Assembly: GCA_003584895.1 (NCBI GenBank)
Contig: QVQF01000234.1
Span: forward strand, 1-40,048
From: Methylococcales bacterium
GTDB taxonomy: Bacteria > Pseudomonadota > Gammaproteobacteria > Methylococcales > Methylomonadaceae
DNA: 40,048 bases
Direction: 5' to 3'
Of the stretch, positions 32,529 through 40,048 are shown piece by piece. Below the pieces are notes generated by a model that was given only the letters and a program-made list of their open reading frames with translations, searched no databases and had not been told where the DNA came from. The translations under genes were made by a program, and so were the position numbers. The first letter of the stretch is position 1; every line of letters starts with the position of its first letter.

Positions 32529-33422
32529 ATGAAAAAAACTAGCCTTATTTTTCTGCCCTTTATTTTTAGCAGCGCTTATGCAGACGTGCCGGTTGTGATT
32601 GACCATTCGTTATATCCACAATCTGCAACTCCTAACAACCCAGCCAACACACAATCGACAACGACGTTATATGAGTTGATGGGGCGATTGGAGCAAATGC
32701 AATCTGAAGTGCAACAGCTTACCGGCAAAATAGATGAACAAGCTAATCGAATCGATGACTTAAAAAAACATCAAGGAACAATGTATTCAGATTTTGATGA
32801 GCGCTTGCAAAACATAGAAAATAAGGCTAACGGTGTTACTGCAAATCCAAATGAAGTCGCCAAACCAAGCAGCATTACCACCAACGCTAAAGAAGTCCAA
32901 CCTACGACAGCAGCTCCAGTAGTAGTTCCAACTAATTCAGCGCAAAAAGCTAACCCTATCGAAAAAGCGACAGCCAATCAAGGATTAAAGTCACAAATTG
33001 ACAGCCCACAAAGCCAAGGGCCTGATAAACAAGGTTATTTTATGGCCTATGATGAGCTTAGAAGTGGACATACAGCTCAATCTATAGAACAATTCAAAGC
33101 TTATCTTAACCAGTACCCTACAGGTGAATATGCCAATAATGCACAATATTGGCTAGGTGAAGCTTATAGAGTCAATCAGGATAACGCTTCTGCTCGTAAA
33201 GCATTTAATGATGTACTCGAGAAATATCCTAATAGCTTAAAAGTACCTGATGCTATATTAAAACTTGGCTATATCGAAGTGGACCAAAAAAACTCAGTAA
33301 AAGCAACGGAATATCTCAATCGTGTTATTTCTGATTATCCTAAATCGCCCGCTGCAATACTGGCATCAAAGAAACTATTAAAACTCAATGAAGCAGCTCC
33401 TCATGAAGTAGCCCATCATTAG
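32529..33422 (+). CDS. cpoB: Cell division coordinator CpoB (YbgF)
   Basis: Periplasmic protein that links outer-membrane constriction with PBP1B activity in the Tol-Pal network. 297 residues: signal peptide (LIFLPFIFSSAYA), N-terminal coiled coil (about 48-100; YELMGRLEQMQSEVQQL), a Thr/Ala/Pro-rich linker to about 165, and tandem TPRs (GYFMAYDELRSGHTAQSIEQ, YANNAQYWLGEAYRVNQ, PDAILKLGYIEV). The C-terminus ends in HEVAHH. It is third in the tolB operon; queE begins 3 nt after its stop. Confidence 0.93.
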   Translation: MKKTSLIFLPFIFSSAYADVPVVIDHSLYPQSATPNNPANTQSTTTLYELMGRLEQMQSEVQQLTGKIDEQANRIDDLKKHQGTMYSDFDERLQNIENKANGVTANPNEVAKPSSITTNAKEVQPTTAAPVVVPTNSAQKANPIEKATANQGLKSQIDSPQSQGPDKQGYFMAYDELRSGHTAQSIEQFKAYLNQYPTGEYANNAQYWLGEAYRVNQDNASARKAFNDVLEKYPNSLKVPDAILKLGYIEVDQKNSVKATEYLNRVISDYPKSPAAILASKKLLKLNEAAPHEVAHH

Positions 33423-33424
33423 TG

Positions 33425-34066
33425 ATGAGCAGTCTTCGTATTACTGAAATTTTTTATTCTTTACAAGGAGAATCAAATACAGTGGGAATTCCCACTGTAT
33501 TTATTCGACTTACCGGATGTCCTTTGCGATGCGTTTATTGTGATACAGCTTATGCTTTTACAGGTGGAAAAAAGTTAAGCATTAACGACATTATTACCGA
33601 AGCAGAGCAATATAATACCCCTTTTATTACGGTAACCGGAGGAGAGCCCTTGGCACAACCAGGTTGCATAGAATTACTAACCGAATTACTCAATAAAAAC
33701 TTTAAAGTTTCACTTGAAACTAGTGGCGCCATTGATATTTCTAATGTAGATCAACGCACCGTAAAAGTCATGGATCTTAAAACACCTGGCTCAGGTGAAC
33801 TTAATAAAAATCTCTATGAAAATATTCAATATCTAAATAGTAAAGATCAAGTTAAATTCGTCATCGGTACTAATGAAGACTACAACTGGTCAAAAGCTAT
33901 TTTGACAGAATACGCACTATCCGATCGTTGCGAAATATTATTTTCACCGGTTATGGGACTACAAAATCCAACTGAACTTGCTGAAAAAATTCTCCGAGAC
34001 AGATTACCTGTTCGATTTCAAATTCAATTACATAAACTGCTTTGGGATGATGCTCAAGGCAAGTAA
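33425..34066 (+). CDS. queE: 7-carboxy-7-deazaguanine synthase
   Basis: Radical SAM enzyme of queuosine biosynthesis that converts 6-carboxytetrahydropterin to 7-carboxy-7-deazaguanine. 213 residues. The Fe-S motif CPLRCVYC (CxxxCxxC) follows TVGIPTVFIRLTG, and VTGGEPLAQPG is the SAM-binding motif. EIFYSLQGES is the usual N-terminus. A GTG directly before the ATG at 33425 could also start it. It sits between cpoB and queC, as in many gammaproteobacteria. Confidence 0.95.
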   Translation: MSSLRITEIFYSLQGESNTVGIPTVFIRLTGCPLRCVYCDTAYAFTGGKKLSINDIITEAEQYNTPFITVTGGEPLAQPGCIELLTELLNKNFKVSLETSGAIDISNVDQRTVKVMDLKTPGSGELNKNLYENIQYLNSKDQVKFVIGTNEDYNWSKAILTEYALSDRCEILFSPVMGLQNPTELAEKILRDRLPVRFQIQLHKLLWDDAQGK

Positions 34067-34072
34067 ATTATC

Positions 34073-34750
34073 ATGCAAAAAAAAGCCATTATTCTTCTAT
34101 CAGGCGGATTAGATTCAATTACTGTCCTTGCCCTAGCAAAACAACAAGGATACATCTGTTACGCCTTAAGCTTTGATTATGGACAAAGACATAATGCAGA
34201 GCTAATAGCTGCCGCTCAAATAGCAAAATATTATCAAGTTATTGATCATAAAATAATTAAACTTGGATTAGGAAGCATAGGTGGATCTGCCTTAACCGAC
34301 GAAAATATTGCTGTACCTAATAAACCACAAGCAGGCATCCCCGTCACTTATGTCCCAGCAAGAAACACCATATTTCTTTCCTTTGCCCTGGGTTGGGCAG
34401 AAGTATTAAATTTAACTGATATCTTTATAGGTGTTAATGCAGTGGATTACTCCGGTTACCCTGACTGTAGACCAGAATTTATTACTGCTTTTCAGAAATT
34501 AGCGAATTTAGCCACTAAAGCAGGTGTAAATGGAAACTTCTTTACTATACACACCCCCCTAATCTCTTTAAGTAAGGCAGAAATCATTAAACAAGGCATT
34601 GCTTTAGGTGTTGATTATCGTCAAACCGTTTCATGTTACTCAGCAGATGAGCAAGGCCAGGCCTGTGGCGTATGTGATGCATGTCGAATAAGAATAACAG
34701 GATTTTCAGAAGCAAATGTAAAAGACCCAACTCAATATAAAAATCAATAA
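34073..34750 (+). CDS. queC: 7-cyano-7-deazaguanine synthase
   Basis: ATP-dependent enzyme making preQ0 from 7-carboxy-7-deazaguanine and ammonia. 225 residues. P-loop SGGLDS is at about 9-14, [10 protein letters not shown] near 40-49, [16 protein letters not shown] near 100-115, [15 protein letters not shown] near 125-140, and zinc ligands in [18 protein letters not shown]. It is the last gene before the tRNA-Lys, with no obvious terminator in between. Confidence 0.96.
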
Positions 34751-34755
34751 AAGTA

Positions 34756-34783
34756 TTGCATAATCTGTAAAAATCATTATAAT
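34756..34783 (+). promoter_or_regulatory. Promoter of tRNA-Lys
   Basis: TTGCAT (34756-34761), 16-base spacer, TATAAT (34778-34783), 14 bases before the mature tRNA 5' end. Confidence 0.6.
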
Positions 34784-34797
34784 GGTCAATCTTTGTT

Positions 34798-34873
34798 GGG
34801 TCGTTAGCTCAGCCGGTAGAGCACCGCACTTTTAATGCGATGGTCGCGCGTTCGAATCGCGCACGACCCACCA
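34798..34873 (+). tRNA. tRNA-Lys (anticodon UUU)
   Basis: 76 nt with encoded CCA. Acceptor stem GGGTCGT / ACGACCC, D arm with AGCTCAGCCGGTAGAGC, anticodon loop CTTTTAA giving UUU (34831-34833), and T arm CGCGC-GTTCGAATC-GCGCG. The first pair of the anticodon stem is a C/A mismatch; the rest of the fold is standard. It reads AAA/AAG codons. Confidence 0.97.
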
Positions 34874-34891
34874 CCAAAGAACATATGAATC

Positions 34892-34923
34892 AAGTCCTTA
34901 CGTGCAAACGAAGGGCTTTTTTT
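34892..34923 (+). terminator. Terminator of tRNA-Lys
   Basis: AAGTCCTT pairs with AAGGGCTT (one G·U) around an 11-nt loop, then a run of seven T (34917-34923). A classic Rho-independent signal. Confidence 0.8.
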
Positions 34924-35505
34924 ATGCCTAAAATTTCTCATGGCGCACTGGTAGCGCAATTCGAAAAAACACGACTCCATTGGTCATTCCTACCAAATTC
35001 TACCTAATCAACTCCAATTAAACCTTTAAGTAATATAAATCAATCGATTGGGGGTTGGGGGGTTTAACTTTGTAAGTGGCCGCAGCTCAATCATCGTCTC
35101 GCTGACCCTAATGTTTGATAGGAGCATCAAAAATATTCGACACCCTTTTTTGAATTATTAGCTAAAAGTGATTTTTGAAATTTATTTTTGAAAAATTTAG
35201 GATTTAAGATCGGTATATTGGCACTTATAAAAACTATAAATTTGATCTGGCGACTTCAAAAATTAGTTTAAACGTTATCTTTCATTGGCTGCCTGTTCTC
35301 GACCCACTACGGTCGTTGACCTCTTTTTTTTTGGCGGCAGCTATCTCATGTATAGCTGTCATTCGTCTTATAAAAAATATTCCAATTCAACCACAAATCT
35401 TTCCATCAGTTTTTTGCCTGAATAATTGCTGGTTAGCGTTTACCTTTCTTTATTCTGCTGCGTAATTTTTTAATTTCTCAGGAGGCAGTGTAACGAAACA
35501 TAGAT
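34924..35505. other. Gene-free stretch downstream of tRNA-Lys
   Basis: About 580 bases with no supportable gene. It contains a G-rich patch (GGGGG TT GGGGGG at 35050-35062), a T-run (35323-35332) next to a 9-bp hairpin GGCAGCTAT / ATAGCTGTC (35336-35360, one G·U), and several in-frame stops in all readings. It may be degraded coding sequence, but no family could be recognised. Confidence 0.5.
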
Positions 35506-36412
35506 TTAAAGGGTGTTGCTGTGTTGTTTTAATAAATCCAAGCAATGCAATTTAATTGTTTCGCAGATATTATCTAAAGGCAAATGGCTTAAGCTTTTAC
35601 TATTAAAAGGCTTTTGCAACTCAATGCCAATCCGGTCCAACGATAACAACGGGTAAGCGACTAGAAAAAATATAGCGACTGTATAAACCCCCGCTTTTTC
35701 TAACAAAGAAAAGGGTAGCAGTAATAAAAACATAAAGACAAATCGGCGTATTTTTACAGCATAAACGAACGGCATCGGCGTTTTTAAAATGCGCTCGCAG
35801 CCGCCTAAATGATCGATCAATAGGCCCCGCTGTCCTTCTAGAAGACTAAATTCAAAGCCGTCTAATTCAAGTCCGTTGGTATTTGGGTAACCCGTGCGTG
35901 CTTTTTGCAATAATGTGGCTATTTTACTGACAACAAATAATGGCATGTGGATGGCTGATTTTAGTTCTACAAGCTCTTGCGCCGTCAGTAGACCAACTAA
36001 GGGGGTAAAATTATTACCATTTCGTAATGACTCTTTGGTGGCAAATGCAAAAGCAATGGCCCATTTCGTTAAGGCCTCTCTCCAAGCACTATCATGCGGT
36101 CCGTAGTTCAATCCGCCAATAATCAGGTTGCGGATTTGGTTGGCAATACCGCCCCATAATTTGCGAGCCTCCCACCAACGTTCGTAACCGGCATTAGTTC
36201 TAAAAACCAATACCATGCCCAAGACTACACCCGTGTATTGAAAGGGTGTGACATCAAGAGAAGGTAAAGGCCACCAGTAATGCAGGATAACAACATAATA
36301 ATAACAGCATGGGCAAAATGCGGGGTGTAACAGAACCTCGCCACATCAGGGAGCTGAGTAAAAAATTGGGATGCTCGTCTTTATTGGTCATTAAATGAGA
36401 AGAGTCTTTCAT
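35506..36412 (-). pseudogene. Bestrophin-like anion channel family gene with one-base frameshift
   Basis: UPF0187/bestrophin family (RFP-TM), probably a chloride channel. The 238-codon frame from 36222 begins in the middle of the family at GMVLVFRTNAGYERWWEARK; the missing start is found upstream. From the ATG at 36412, preceded by AGGA at good spacing, the frame reads RGSVTPRILPMLLLLC to about 36293; skipping one T (36292) it continues VILHYWWPLPSLDVTPFQYT and joins the long frame. So about 302 codons are present with a single extra base in a TTA/TGT repeat-like run. The rest is full length, with the C-terminal PLLSLDRIGIELQKPF. Either a real pseudogene, a sequencing error, or a slippage site. 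Confidence 0.85.
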
Positions 36413-36802
36413 AATTTATTCCTAATTAAACGCGAATTCAACTCTGAAGTGCAATTCCAGTATTCATGTCGCCTGCAGATTATCATCGCCAAAAAATACC
36501 GCATGGGTTGTTTTATAAATTAGTATTTTTCGAGGTTGGTGATTAAGTTTTTGCATGACCTCCTCAACCTAGCTCTCAGTTATATTTTCAAAACTGCTGC
36601 ATTTAGGGGTTAATTAATCCCTAGTAGAGTACAAAAATAATTTTAGCCATTTCTTTTTCCTCTGAGTTAAACATCGGTAATAGGTTGGAATAAGTATGTC
36701 GTCAGTCGCTCCGCCGCTTAGCGGATAGCACCCTGTTGCATATATTCGGCAAGGTTATAAAAGCGGATGCAGGGATTGTGAATGTAATTCTCCGAAGGTT
36801 AA
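36413..36802. other. Stretch between bestrophin and rhodanese genes
   Basis: About 390 bases without an intact gene. On the minus strand a well-spaced AGAGG precedes ATG at 36650, which encodes only MAKIIFVLY before a stop at 36621; this resembles the first residues of NAD-dependent formate dehydrogenase and may be a stump. A palindrome around TTAATTAA (36610-36621) follows, and a 32-codon ORF starts at about 36556 with AGGAGG too close to its ATG. None is called as a gene. Confidence 0.4.
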
Positions 36803-37138
36803 TTAGTCTACAATTCGATAGGTCGGTATCGTGCTGTCAACTTGCAACGCCCATGTATGAACGCCACCGGTTAGGTTTCTAATAGCTGTAAAACCATTCC
36901 GCTCTAAAAATAACGCAACCTGCATACTGCGCACGCCATGGTGGCAAATGCAGATAATTGTCTGCTGAGCATTCAGTTCGGACAGTCTGTCGGAAATGGT
37001 ATTCATCGGCATCGTTAAGGATCCGTTAATATGACCGGCCTGAAACTCCCACGGCTCACGCACATCGAGTAATAGGGGTTGCTCTCGTACTTCATCCGCA
37101 AGCCATGCGGCCAATTCAATGGGTGTCAAATTTTGCAT
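36803..37138 (-). CDS. Single-domain rhodanese-like sulfurtransferase
   Basis: 111 residues. The rhodanese active loop CHHGVRS carries the catalytic Cys65; LLLDVREPWEFQAGHINGS at about 22-40 has the conserved Asp25 and Arg, and LTGGVHTWA is the C-terminal motif. It may move persulfide sulfur, or it may be a GlpE/ThiI-like carrier; in operons with grxD and bolA it is often linked to Fe-S metabolism. It stands 160 nt after grxD on the same strand. Confidence 0.9.
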   Translation of the reverse strand: MQNLTPIELAAWLADEVREQPLLLDVREPWEFQAGHINGSLTMPMNTISDRLSELNAQQTIICICHHGVRSMQVALFLERNGFTAIRNLTGGVHTWALQVDSTIPTYRIVD

Positions 37139-37297
37139 AATTTTTCATATATAGGTGAGCCTTCGTGGTTGAATAAAGCCGCCTACCTCTTTATGTGTTA
37201 TGCCGAGTCTCATTTTATTCTCGCGCAATTCTTTTCGGTACAGCTACACCATTAACGCAATCAGGCATTGAAAATCAGCCTATCCAAACGGAGTAAC

Positions 37298-37618
37298 TCA
37301 TAGCTGTGCCGCTTGCAGCAATTGTTGTAGTTCGCCTTGCTCAAACATCTCGCGCATGATGTCGCAACCGCCAACAAATTCGCCCTTGATATAAAGCTGC
37401 GGAATGGTCGGCCAGTTAGCGTAGGACTTAATGCCATCTCGTATTTCTGGGTCAGCCAACACGTCCACCGTGAACAGATTCGGCCCGCCGCATGCCTTCA
37501 GCATCTGGATCGCAGCGCCGGAAAAGCCGCACTGCGGAAACTGGGGCGTACCTTTCATGTAGAGCACAACCGAGTTGGTCGTCACTTGTTGGTTAATTCT
37601 TTTCTGAACAGCCGTCAT
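37298..37618 (-). CDS. grxD: Monothiol glutaredoxin GrxD (second copy)
   Basis: CGFS glutaredoxin, 106 residues. Active Cys30 is in PQCGFSGAA; YMKGTP, NWPTIPQLYIKGEFVGGCDI and the EQGELQQLL tail are conserved. The ATG at 37618 has GGAG six to seven bases upstream; the ATG two codons earlier does not. Codons are visibly richer in G+C than in grxD at 22478, so it may have been acquired separately. It follows bolA by 19 nt; GrxD–BolA complexes handle [2Fe-2S] clusters. Confidence 0.95.
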   Translation of the reverse strand: MTAVQKRINQQVTTNSVVLYMKGTPQFPQCGFSGAAIQMLKACGGPNLFTVDVLADPEIRDGIKSYANWPTIPQLYIKGEFVGGCDIMREMFEQGELQQLLQAAQL

Positions 37619-37637
37619 AATCATTCTCCAAAGTAGT

Positions 37638-37883
37638 TTAATTGTTGCTTTTAATCCACGCCTCAGGCGTGAAGGTTTTTATCGACAGTGCGTGAATTTC
37701 TGTACGCATACGCTCACCCAATGCCAGATACACTAATTGATGTTGCTGCACCCTGTTTTTACCGGTGAATTTCGGGCTAACGATCACCGCCTCGAAATGC
37801 TGGCCGTCATCACCTTGCACTTCCACATAATCGCTAGACAAGCCATCCATGATGTAGTTTCTTAAGTCATTCGCTGTTAGCAT
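37638..37883 (-). CDS. BolA family protein (IbaG-like)
   Basis: 81 residues. [10 protein letters not shown] contains the invariant His; [20 protein letters not shown] is the beta-hairpin, and [14 protein letters not shown] ends the fold. The size is that of YrbA/IbaG rather than the longer BolA. GAGAG precedes the ATG. Upstream of grxD on the same strand; the pair probably forms a cluster-binding heterodimer. Confidence 0.92.
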
Positions 37884-38004
37884 CGCATTCTCTCAAGGTT
37901 AAAATTACAGTGAGCACAGATGAGGCATACAGGAACGACGAAATCCCTTAACCTTTGTGTACGTTATAGAAAAAATTATTTTCATATCTAGGCATCACCG
38001 ATCA

Positions 38005-38175
38005 TCAATCATGTTCCGCCTCGGTTGACGTGTTATCAATTGCGTTGAATGCGGCCTGTAGTGTGTACCACGGGAGTATCGCGCATTTGACGCGCACCTG
38101 CAGGTCGGCTATGCCGTTCTTCAAAAGCCGTGCCTGAATTTTTTTCGCAGCATTTTCCGCCAATGTAATCGCCAT
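38005..38175 (-). pseudogene. Chimeric stump: IscA/HesB-type 5' end joined to SufU-type 3' end
   Basis: A 56-codon ORF with ATG at 38175 and GGTGA six bases upstream. Residues 1-20, MAITLAENAAKKIQARLLKN, match the start of A-type Fe-S carriers (IscA/HesB), but the body with the conserved Cys-x-Cys is missing. From about residue 25, QVRVKCAILPWYTLQAAF, it matches the C-terminus of SufU/NifU-type scaffold proteins (usual form RVKCATLxWHTL), ending at a natural-looking TGA. The simplest explanation is an in-frame or near-in-frame deletion between two genes of a SUF operon. Codons are relatively GC-rich like those of bolA and grxD downstream. It could still be translated, but neither parent activity can survive. 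Confidence 0.75.
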
Positions 38176-38198
38176 CACTATTCACCAAGTTTTTATGC

Positions 38199-38235
38199 AA
38201 GTAAATACAGGACTATTTTAGTCCTGTATTTACTT
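38199..38235. repeat. Perfect 17-bp inverted repeat in the SUF-remnant leader
   Basis: AAGTAAATACAGGACTA and TAGTCCTGTATTTACTT separated by TTT. The centre reads GACTA–TTT–TAGTC, which is the half-site pattern of IscR-type sites. It overlaps the -10 region and would be a stable hairpin at the start of the minus-strand transcript. Confidence 0.7.
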
Positions 38236-38264
38236 TATAGTACCCGAGTAATTTAGTCAACTAC
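38231..38264 (-). promoter_or_regulatory. IscR-like operator over a sigma70-like promoter
   Basis: On the minus strand TTGACT (38260-38255) is a good -35; TAAAGT (38237-38232, spacer 17) or TATAAA (38239-38234, spacer 15) is the -10. TTGACT-N5-ACTCGGGTA over 38260-38241 is the form seen at promoters of isc/suf operons controlled by IscR (type 1 sites). It faces the SUF stump, bolA, grxD and rhodanese genes. Confidence 0.6.
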
Positions 38265-38306
38265 TCTGCTACTATGTGATTGTAAGTTCGCTGCCAACAC
38301 GGACCA

Positions 38307-38405
38307 ATTGCTATGGACTTTCAAGTCAAGCCCTAAATTGGCAACTAGGTTGTCGCGAAAACGCGCCATCTCAGCAAATTCCCAGATAGTATCAATATGC
38401 AATAA
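38307..38405 (-). pseudogene. cysD: Internal fragment of cysD (sulfate adenylyltransferase subunit 2)
   Basis: A 33-codon stretch reads LLHIDTIWEFAEMARFRDN and then LGLDLKVHSN, which lines up with the central part of CysD (usual LLHVDTTWKFREM..FRD..GLDLIVH). Neither the N-terminal P-loop region (SIGKDS) nor the C-terminal GARRDEEKSR part is present. The upstream end coincides with the edge of a 67-bp repeat at 38406; the downstream end runs to a stop at about 38253 in the IscR-like box. A broken remnant. Confidence 0.75.
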
Positions 38406-38472
38406 TGTAAAACAGCTTGAAAAAATGACCAACTAGTCAGCAAAAACAGCGTTAAAATTGATCTTGTAAAAT
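38406..38472. repeat. 67-bp direct repeat, copy 1
   Basis: Matches the copy at 39977-40043 with two mismatches. Starts TGTAAAACAGC, contains the near-palindrome TGACCAACTAGTCA, and ends CTTGTAAAAT, so TGTAAAA occurs at both ends. AAAACAGC occurs twice, 34 bases apart. It begins exactly where the cysD fragment ends. Confidence 0.9.
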
Positions 38473-38531
38473 CTATAACATACTGTTTTAATAAACATTA
38501 ACTAATAAAAAACCAATCCTGAAGATGGTCA

Positions 38532-38717
38532 ATGTTAGATGCTGTTTTACAGCGACTAGATCTACAAACACTTAAAATCACAGCAGAAGTGCTGCATACA
38601 CCCCAATTACAACGGTGGCTCAGTAGCTTTGGTCCTGATATTGAGATCCCCTCACCTTTAGTCCTTCGTGAACTTATGGCAACTCGTCATCAGCAAGCCG
38701 CAGAGCTTTATAAGTAA
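38532..38717 (+). pseudogene. C-terminal stump of a WYL-domain transcriptional regulator
   Basis: 61 codons. LKITAEVLHTPQLQRWLSSF, then GPDIEIPSPLVLRELMATR and AAELYK, matches the C-terminal extension (WCX) of WYL regulators, which usually reads RWLLSFGxxVEVLxPxxLRE. The N-terminal HTH and the WYL core are absent, and the frame upstream is closed by a stop at 38520-38522. It lies 59 bases after repeat copy 1. Almost certainly not functional. Confidence 0.65.
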
Positions 38718-38743
38718 GATTTATTTTCTTAACAGTTCTGCTG

Positions 38744-39760
38744 TTATTGCAGAGGTACTATTTCTTTTGACTTTATTTTCTTACCAATAATCTTTTCAGC
38801 GGCATCGCTTAATAAATCCCGATGCATCCTTTGGGCATCATTAAAGAAATTAGTGCCTATATCAGCATCAATCAGATGTGTTCCCAGTAAACGCAATGCT
38901 TTTTCTTCATCAAAGACATTTTCACCGTATATAAGACGAAAGCTATTATCTTTACTACTGCCTTCTTCTACATATCGACCCTCAAAATTCTCAGCCAATG
39001 CAGCTGAAAAATATTGCATAGCGAGATTACCGATGCGAGGCATATGAGAAGCGCCAACAACAACCCGTATATGTTGTCTTTCTTCCGGTGTCATATCTTT
39101 TACCCAGGATTTAAACTGGTGGTCCAAGGTATTAATTTGCTCTTCAGCCGCATCGGACATATTAGCAAGGCAATCGTCGCGTTGACTAAGGGTAAATTGG
39201 TGTAAGGCATCTTTCGAGATTATTTTATGGCTCAAAACAGTATCAATTAAGGATAGTGATCGCTTAATGAGCCGCCCTTGGCGATCAAGTTGTTCAGAGC
39301 TAAAGTTAAGCGTTGCGAGTGCATTGCTTACCGATCCGATGAGTGTGCGATAGTCACGCAATTTATCCAGTTGGACATCTGTCATTACCTTGTTAGTTTC
39401 ATTGCTTAGCATCACATATAAAGCTAACGGTAAATGAGCAATAGTTTTAAGTTCAGTATAGCGGGGGCTAATAGCCATTGACTCAGTGCGCATACCCTTG
39501 TTGAAAAGAATAATTTTGTCACCAACTTGAATAATGACAGGCGTCTGTGTGGCTTGTAGTTGACTGCGAAGATCAGCATAGGCGCTGCGAAAAGAGGCAT
39601 TTAATGCTATGAGTGGGTCAGGCTGCTCTATGTTTTTTATAGTTTCTAGTGGGGCTTGATAGCCATCTAGAGCAAATACTTGGTTTACATTTAAAACACC
39701 TATAACGACTATTAAAGATAATAAACAGTTTTTATTAAATTTATCCATACAGTCTTTCAT
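38744..39760 (-). CDS. Putative secreted protein of unknown family
   Basis: 338 residues (334 if the second ATG at 39748 is used). A clear signal peptide (LLSLIVVIGVLNVNQVFA, cleavage near LDGYQAP) leads to a soluble, mostly helical domain with no cysteine pattern, no membrane segment after the signal, and no motif I know. Noted stretches: PVIIQVGDKIILFNKGMRTE, TEERQ-like TPEERQHIRVVVGASHMPRI (about 225-245), RLIYGENVFDEEKALRLLG, and THLIDADIGTNFFNDAQR. It looks like a periplasmic protein with a conserved-looking VVGASHMPR core. It is the only intact gene between the two 67-bp repeats. I could not assign a function. Confidence 0.75.
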   Translation of the reverse strand: MKDCMDKFNKNCLLSLIVVIGVLNVNQVFALDGYQAPLETIKNIEQPDPLIALNASFRSAYADLRSQLQATQTPVIIQVGDKIILFNKGMRTESMAISPRYTELKTIAHLPLALYVMLSNETNKVMTDVQLDKLRDYRTLIGSVSNALATLNFSSEQLDRQGRLIKRSLSLIDTVLSHKIISKDALHQFTLSQRDDCLANMSDAAEEQINTLDHQFKSWVKDMTPEERQHIRVVVGASHMPRIGNLAMQYFSAALAENFEGRYVEEGSSKDNSFRLIYGENVFDEEKALRLLGTHLIDADIGTNFFNDAQRMHRDLLSDAAEKIIGKKIKSKEIVPLQ

Positions 39761-39796
39761 CAGATTACTCGGCTAGTGGTAACGATTTACTAGTAT

Positions 39797-39810
39797 ACGG
39801 TTAAAACCGT
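39797..39810. other. Palindrome upstream of the secreted-protein gene
   Basis: ACGGTT–AA–AACCGT, about 37 bases before the start at 39760; operator-like. Confidence 0.3.
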
Positions 39811-39976
39811 TGAGCCGACTATTTGCACATTAACATCTATCTATCTTTTAGATCTATTTCAATTCGACATTATTTGTCGCTAGTTAGTTTTATCTTAATA
39901 ACCGTACTAAAGAAAAAAGATCCAAGAGTTCTAAAAACTAGCCTTTCTTTACAGGCATAGAAGAGAATCCATAGTG

Positions 39977-40043
39977 TGTAAAACAGCTTGAAAAAATGAC
40001 CAACTAGTCAGCAAAAACAGCGTTAAAGTTAATCTTGTAAAAT
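39977..40043. repeat. 67-bp direct repeat, copy 2
   Basis: Same orientation as 38406-38472; the only differences are in the segment AATTGAT (copy 1) versus AGTTAAT. About 1.5 kb lies between the copies. Five more bases reach the window edge, so whether a third copy follows is unknown. Confidence 0.9.
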
Positions 40044-40048
40044 AGCTA

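Follow-up and report, generated by a model that had tools for sequence, protein, structure and literature searches.

The locus and its gene content

The stretch of DNA analysed here (the window) comprises positions 1 to 40,048 of contig QVQF01000234.1 in the genome assembly of a Methylococcales bacterium (GCA_003584895.1), which measures 2.6 Mb and is 96% complete. Two pieces belonging to the AMO/PmoA family were found at contig ends of this genome, and the host is therefore probably a methanotroph. Toward one end of the window, a promoter-like region with two operator-like sites reads on the minus strand into a 56-codon open reading frame (ORF, 38005-38175), which is followed by bolA, grxD and a rhodanese gene; we refer to this set as the cassette (Table 1). 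The preliminary description of this DNA had named these three genes downstream of the ORF, and Pfam confirms all of them. The grxD product scores 154.8 bits against TIGR00365 (cut-off 117.1) and contains the CGFS motif, and is thus a Grx4 glutaredoxin.

Table 1. Features of the cassette and the adjacent element
Feature	Position	Strand	Basis or remark
Operator 1, IscR type-1 box	38240..38264	-	22/25 consensus positions; overlaps -35 hexamer
Promoter-like hexamers TTGACT-17-TAAAGT	38232..38260	-	sigma-70 pattern scan
Operator 2, palindrome AAGTAAATACAGGACTA-aaa-TAGTCCTGTATTTACTT	38199..38235	-	self-match, perfect 17-nt arms
sufA remnant, codons 1-21	38113..38175	-	DNA alignment and protein comparison
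sufA/sufU junction	within 38112-38116	-	DNA alignment
sufU 3' remnant, 35 codons	38008..38112	-	DNA alignment and protein comparison
Former sufU 3' end and downstream spacer	37956..38007	-	DNA alignment
bolA, 81 aa, imported copy	37638..37883	-	Pfam BolA; bolA-grxD DNA tree
grxD, Grx4 monothiol glutaredoxin, imported copy	37298..37624	-	TIGR00365
grxD-rhodanese spacer, second loss site	37139..37297	-	comparison with Polaromonas plasmid
Single-domain rhodanese	36803..37138	-	Pfam
MITE-like element, 29-nt terminal inverted repeats, 79% complementary	38406..38551		beside cassette

A partial copy of the MITE-like element (97%) lies at the contig end (39977-40048), and two more partial matches (82-85%) are located on contig 65. 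The 61-aa ORF at 38532-38717, which matches the end of the WCX domain, starts inside the element, and thus looks like a gene truncated by it. Among the other ORFs nearby, a Bestrophin-like one (35506-36412) matches its model only from position 65; the short ORF at 36254-36412 could be its displaced N-terminus, and the gene may therefore be frameshifted. For the 338-aa ORF at 38744-39760, no Pfam match was found at E up to 1.

Structure of the 56-codon ORF

The product of the 56-codon ORF, MAITLAENAAKKIQARLLKNG/IADLQVRVKCAILPWYTLQAAFNAIDNTSTEAEHD, is encoded by codons 1-21 of sufA, to which the final 35 matching sufU codons are fused in frame. It had been described as starting like an IscA/HesB carrier and ending like a SufU scaffold, and the comparison of the two halves with these families agrees: the N-terminal part matches SufA (16 of 21 residues identical to that of Rhodoferax sp. 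KJN.1, designated L073), and the C-terminal part matches SufU (28 of 35 identical to that of L073). An isc origin was rejected, the C-terminal half being SufU (TIGR01994) and the one PF01592 copy of the genome being the native SufU.

At the DNA level, the halves with the promoter and the 3' flank match opposite ends of a single intact operon (E = 3e-8 and 3e-34). Window positions 38261-38112 align with L073 4105-4251, i.e. the sufA promoter and 21 codons, at 69% identity, and 38116-37956 align with L073 9767-9937, the sufU 3' end, at 77%; the two alignments share five bases, of which the first three (CGG) fit both sides. The two ends are thus collinear with a single operon on the same strand, as befits an operon remnant. 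The stretch that separates them in L073, about 5.5 kb in all, holds the remainder of sufA, then sufB, sufC, sufD, sufS and the greater part of sufU. This middle, present in the intact sufA-B-C-D-S-U operons of relatives, is missing from the window: no match to sufB, sufC, sufD or sufS was found in 35500-40048 below E 0.5, and the best one for sufS (E 0.57) lies away from the junction. In a Ramlibacter metagenome-assembled genome (L074), the match runs unbroken from the sufU end via bolA to grxD (76%).

Among the NCBIfam models the scar peptide matches SufU alone (E = 3e-5), with 23.9 bits against the TIGR01994 cut-off of 92.5, and thus does not qualify as a functional SufU; Pfam gave no match at E up to 1. 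Nor does it qualify as a functional SufA/IscA, as the C-terminal cysteines CGCG, present in all seven intact SufAs, are missing from it. Full-length matches to the peptide are confined to its own genome among 81 genomes (its own and 80 relatives), and DNA searches of the genus (35 genomes) and the family (237 genomes; E cut-off 1e-20, two candidates scored per genome) returned no second scar. These results support the view that the ORF is a deletion scar of a suf operon, and the earlier reading was in this respect essentially right.

Promoter, operators and candidate regulator

The IscR type-1 consensus ATASYYGACTRWWWYAGTCRRSTAT, taken from PMC3899308, has a single match with at most three mismatches in the window, namely operator 1 with three, and none in 100 shuffles. 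The match therefore exceeds chance and, as it overlaps the -35 hexamer, the IscR-type box that had been placed over the promoter is borne out. Such a site, with 1-3 mismatches, also precedes sufA in six of seven intact islands, L205 being the one without it, and all five genomes that carry the cassette retain operator 1, with 3-4 mismatches. The proposed sigma70-like promoter fares less clearly: its hexamers are present, and by eye also in the four other cassette genomes (G002, G023, G245 and G253, see below), but the pattern scan yields three sites in comparison with a mean of 4.0 in shuffles, i.e. not above chance.

Operator 2 agrees with the type-1 consensus at 21 of 25 positions. Its inner flanks are AG..CT in the window, TT..AA in Rhodoferax and TT..AT in Ramlibacter. 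Flanks of the window type occur in six of eight fetched sites upstream of sufU in relatives; more generally, a purine-G before and a C-pyrimidine after the core are found in nine of 30 fetched sites, six of which precede sufU. Genome-wide, the core pattern GACTAWWWTAGTC shows no enrichment: it occurs in 32 of 81 genomes, and a reversed control is often equal or commoner. In 11 of these 32 genomes, and in none of the other 21, a GACTAWWWTAGTC site lies 5.6-9.4 kb upstream of a sufU match on the same contig; the weight of the pattern is in its position, not in its frequency. The own genome has three other exact core sites, none with such flanks on both sides, and its native suf operator, also a GACTA...TAGTC site, departs from the core at one position. 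Operator 2 could thus have been retuned to the host, a suggestion to be read against just two donor-type islands that show the site and stand in for the real donor.

Two Rrf2 proteins were found in the own genome (96% complete). The first, with 172.7 bits against TIGR02944 (cut-off 110.65), is a SUF-type regulator, the second is NsrR-like but below its cut-off, and neither reaches the IscR cut-off. The type-1 box therefore need not be read as in E. coli.

Kinship of the retained genes

A scan for relatives of GrxD returned at least 583, of which the best 80 were kept; the closest among these 80 is GrxD of Rhodoferax sp. KJN.1 (90% amino acid identity; 87% for grxD DNA). The full sufA-BCDSU-grxD island is present in five of the best 80 (L073, L074, L106, L113 and L123), in L075 it begins within sufC, and two Polaromonas plasmids (L205 and L206) carry the same full island. 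The intact order in Burkholderiales is sufA-B-C-D-S-U followed by bolA and grxD, and bolA stands between sufU and grxD in seven of the eight islands, L073 being the exception. BolA and Grx4 proteins associate in complexes with a [2Fe-2S] bridge, and their genes often lie beside Fe-S operons (PMC10051749). The retained genes had been taken for the usual tail of suf clusters, which is correct for bolA and grxD, but the tail has itself been trimmed before rhodanese. The rhodanese is 75% identical to the one in the suf island of Polaromonas plasmid pE3SP1, its best plasmid match and the sole one of 273 records above 60%. Because the pE3SP1 rhodanese gene sits several genes beyond grxD (nifU, bolA2, folE, fdxA and lipA lie between them), the third cassette gene is likewise consistent with that source, provided that a second loss took place.

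In the bolA-grxD DNA tree, the window groups with G002 and G023 (bootstrap 96) and L073 with L074 (95), and the two groups are joined (100) apart from the other islands. The GrxD protein tree (105 columns) roots differently, with L073 and L074 inside the cassette clade; the DNA tree is preferred because the synonymous divergence agrees with it. The gene trees thus place the cassette with Burkholderiales islands and away from the native copy, as expected of acquired genes. The cassette, with a GC content of 0.44-0.49, is also the richest part of 33000-40048, which elsewhere has 0.35-0.43 except for 0.45 at 35750-36249.

A native suf operon of the host, Rrf2-sufB-C-D-S-U, lies on contig 23; the lost operon was therefore not the host's own, and loss of the host's own suf operon is rejected. 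A native bolA is found on contig 1, a second grxD within the window (55% identity), and the genome has its own ErpA. This ErpA is the one A-type carrier found (PF01521), and native SufU the one U-type scaffold (PF01592, one copy); most family members have at least two SufA-like matches, as against the single A-type carrier here. SufA of L073 matched 235 of 237 family genomes, with identities of at most 58% among the matches listed, and hence no island of such close type was seen there. The excision of the central suf genes proposed in the preliminary description thus stands, with about 5.5 kb gone, but it affected a laterally acquired operon rather than the host's own. The presumed transfer would have run from a Burkholderiales-type source to the host's lineage.

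The cassette in related genomes

Searches of 35 genomes of the genus and 237 of the family found the cassette in the own genome and four others. G002 and G023 have promoter-bolA-grxD-rhodanese, with the scar segment cleanly absent and the promoter plus ATGGCG joined straight to the bolA leader. In these two (L197 and L198), a frame of 20-22 codons begins upstream of bolA at what is left of the sufA start, closes at or just inside the bolA start and resembles translational coupling (examined by hand). G245 and G253, which belong to another genus, have promoter-bolA-rhodanese joined at the same place and lack the old sufA start codon; their grxD is broken by an early stop and the absence of about 200 bp, so that not every carrier needs the BolA-GrxD pair. 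The reading frames of bolA and rhodanese are open in each of the five cassette genomes. Among the window, G002 and G023, between which substitutions are few, dN/dS ranges over 0.15-0.38 for bolA, 0.16-0.21 for grxD and 0.15 to 0.72 for rhodanese. Smaller remains were found in G118 (the grxD end only, at a contig edge, then a nifU remnant of 25 aa with 64% identity) and in G009 (the rhodanese end only).

Judged by eye, the neighbouring ORFs seem to differ among the window, G002 and G023, and G002 and G245 seem to share a methyltransferase ORF downstream of the cassette, which favours a common block over independent insertion in those two. Whole or partial copies of the MITE lie within about 500 bp of the cassette in all five genomes.

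Interpretation

We consider it highly probable that a transferred suf island of Burkholderiales type was eroded by deletion, leaving the scar, the promoter and bolA-grxD-rhodanese. Such an island would have entered a probable gammaproteobacterial methanotroph lineage, where one deletion of about 5.5 kb would have joined sufA codon 21 to late sufU in frame, giving rise to the 56-codon hybrid, and another loss would have taken the genes between grxD and rhodanese. The sufA promoter and its two operators would then have remained, reading into bolA, grxD and rhodanese. On the simplest view, the cassette may be a spare BolA-GrxD-rhodanese unit under the former suf promoter and an Rrf2-type repressor. 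It would be transcribed from the old promoter and repressed at ample Fe-S supply; the likeliest repressor would be the SUF-type Rrf2 regulator that the host itself encodes (TIGR02944). Such control by Fe-S status is a prediction from the operator sequences. As for a putative benefit, the BolA-GrxD pair would add [2Fe-2S] relay capacity under iron or oxidative stress.

Within this history, the chance is somewhat less than even that the scar and its scar-free sisters stem from two separate deletions of the full operon, and not from a second, 230-bp deletion inside the scar. Their breakpoints differ, and trees including G245 and G253 leave the branching undecided and are partly contradictory; on the other hand, the window is sister to G002 plus G023 in the bolA-grxD tree, which fits a scar-bearing ancestor equally well.

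A bolder extension is, as a whole, less likely than not. The methanotrophs would have shed foreign suf machinery of a kind they already owned and kept an operator-run BolA-GrxD-rhodanese unit as a domesticated plug-in, often beside MITE copies and perhaps mobile between species. Operator 2 would have changed from the donor form (TT-GACTA..TAGTC-AA) to the host suf form (AG-GACTA..TAGTC-CT), and the host SUF regulator would now run the imported genes.

It seems rather unlikely that the cassette is a decaying leftover with no regulated function. This would agree with the dead grxD of G245 and G253, with the native bolA and grxD of the own genome, and with the erosion of operator 2, where one symmetric position is gone in G023 and two are gone in both G245 and G253; against it, operator 1 persists in all five genomes, bolA and rhodanese have stayed open in each of them, and dN/dS of bolA and grxD is below 0.4 in all three pairs tested.

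A functional new mini-protein encoded by the fused ORF, the alternative for which the preliminary description had seen no catalytic residues, is very improbable. The frame continues across the join, a start codon with a plausible ribosome site is kept, a SufU-derived cysteine (VKCAILPW) is retained, and dN/dS relative to Rhodoferax is low (0.10 for the sufA part, and 0.21 for the sufU part, with the out-of-register comparisons with L074 left out), but this divergence is probably mostly older than the deletion. Against it, the invariant T6 of SufA (7/7 intact proteins) and the invariant P and H of DLP..PWHTL in SufU (8/8) are altered, the SufU tail is frameshifted and truncated by a 10-bp deletion (DNA alignment, 37956..38007), and four cassette-bearing relatives have no scar ORF. 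A true fusion protein was rejected on these grounds, and the ORF is probably a non-functional by-product of the deletion.

An assembly or binning artefact, i.e. a foreign or chimeric contig, is extremely improbable: the assembly does consist of 235 contigs with a contamination estimate of 0.34, and the scar itself occurs in one genome only, but the cassette recurs in four other family genomes at 88-95% identity, the same contig carries a grxD that groups with genus copies, and the scar halves differ by 31% and 23% from Rhodoferax DNA and so were not joined from it by a recent chimera.

Seen as the eroded remainder of a transferred island, the locus belongs to an unusually legible record of how such an operon is pared down, as the intact operon, the hybrid scar, the scar-free join and the additional dead gene each occur in genomes available for comparison. 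For a cell already equipped with SUF, it is a natural test of what in a second SUF island repays keeping, and also of whether the operator that comes with it is adjusted to the regulator of the recipient. A small search of the open-access literature found no published report of the cassette.

Comparison with known systems

Operator 1 resembles the type-1 operators of isc promoters in E. coli and P. aeruginosa (PMC3899308), whose consensus it matches at 22 of 25 positions, and it overlaps the -35 hexamer just as the P. aeruginosa sites described there overlap the polymerase site. Unlike in those systems, no IscR-class protein above the cut-off was found in the own genome, and a second box (21/25) is present. 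The native suf operon of the host (C23, L003) likewise combines SUF genes with a GACTA...TAGTC-type operator that has a single change in its core, but it begins with its own Rrf2 gene, has neither sufA nor a bolA/grxD tail, and shows no deletion.

The Polaromonas plasmids pE3SP1 and pE10SP1, which the paper describing them presents as the earliest report, as far as its authors know, of replicons bearing Fe-S assembly genes (PMC6015842), have the same order sufA-sufBCDSU-bolA-grxD, with erpA after sufA in pE3SP1. Their islands are undeleted, whereas the window keeps the promoter, the scar, bolA, grxD and rhodanese only, and its contig, unlike the plasmid clusters, also carries host-type genes. 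Rhodoferax sp. KJN.1 has the closest GrxD (among the best 80 of at least 583) and the closest sufU end, with operators at the same two positions; it differs in its intact suf genes, in the absence of bolA between sufU and grxD, and in the TT..AA flanks of operator 2. At L073 9900-10010, where suf is kept and bolA is gone, the Rhodoferax island is roughly a mirror image of the window.
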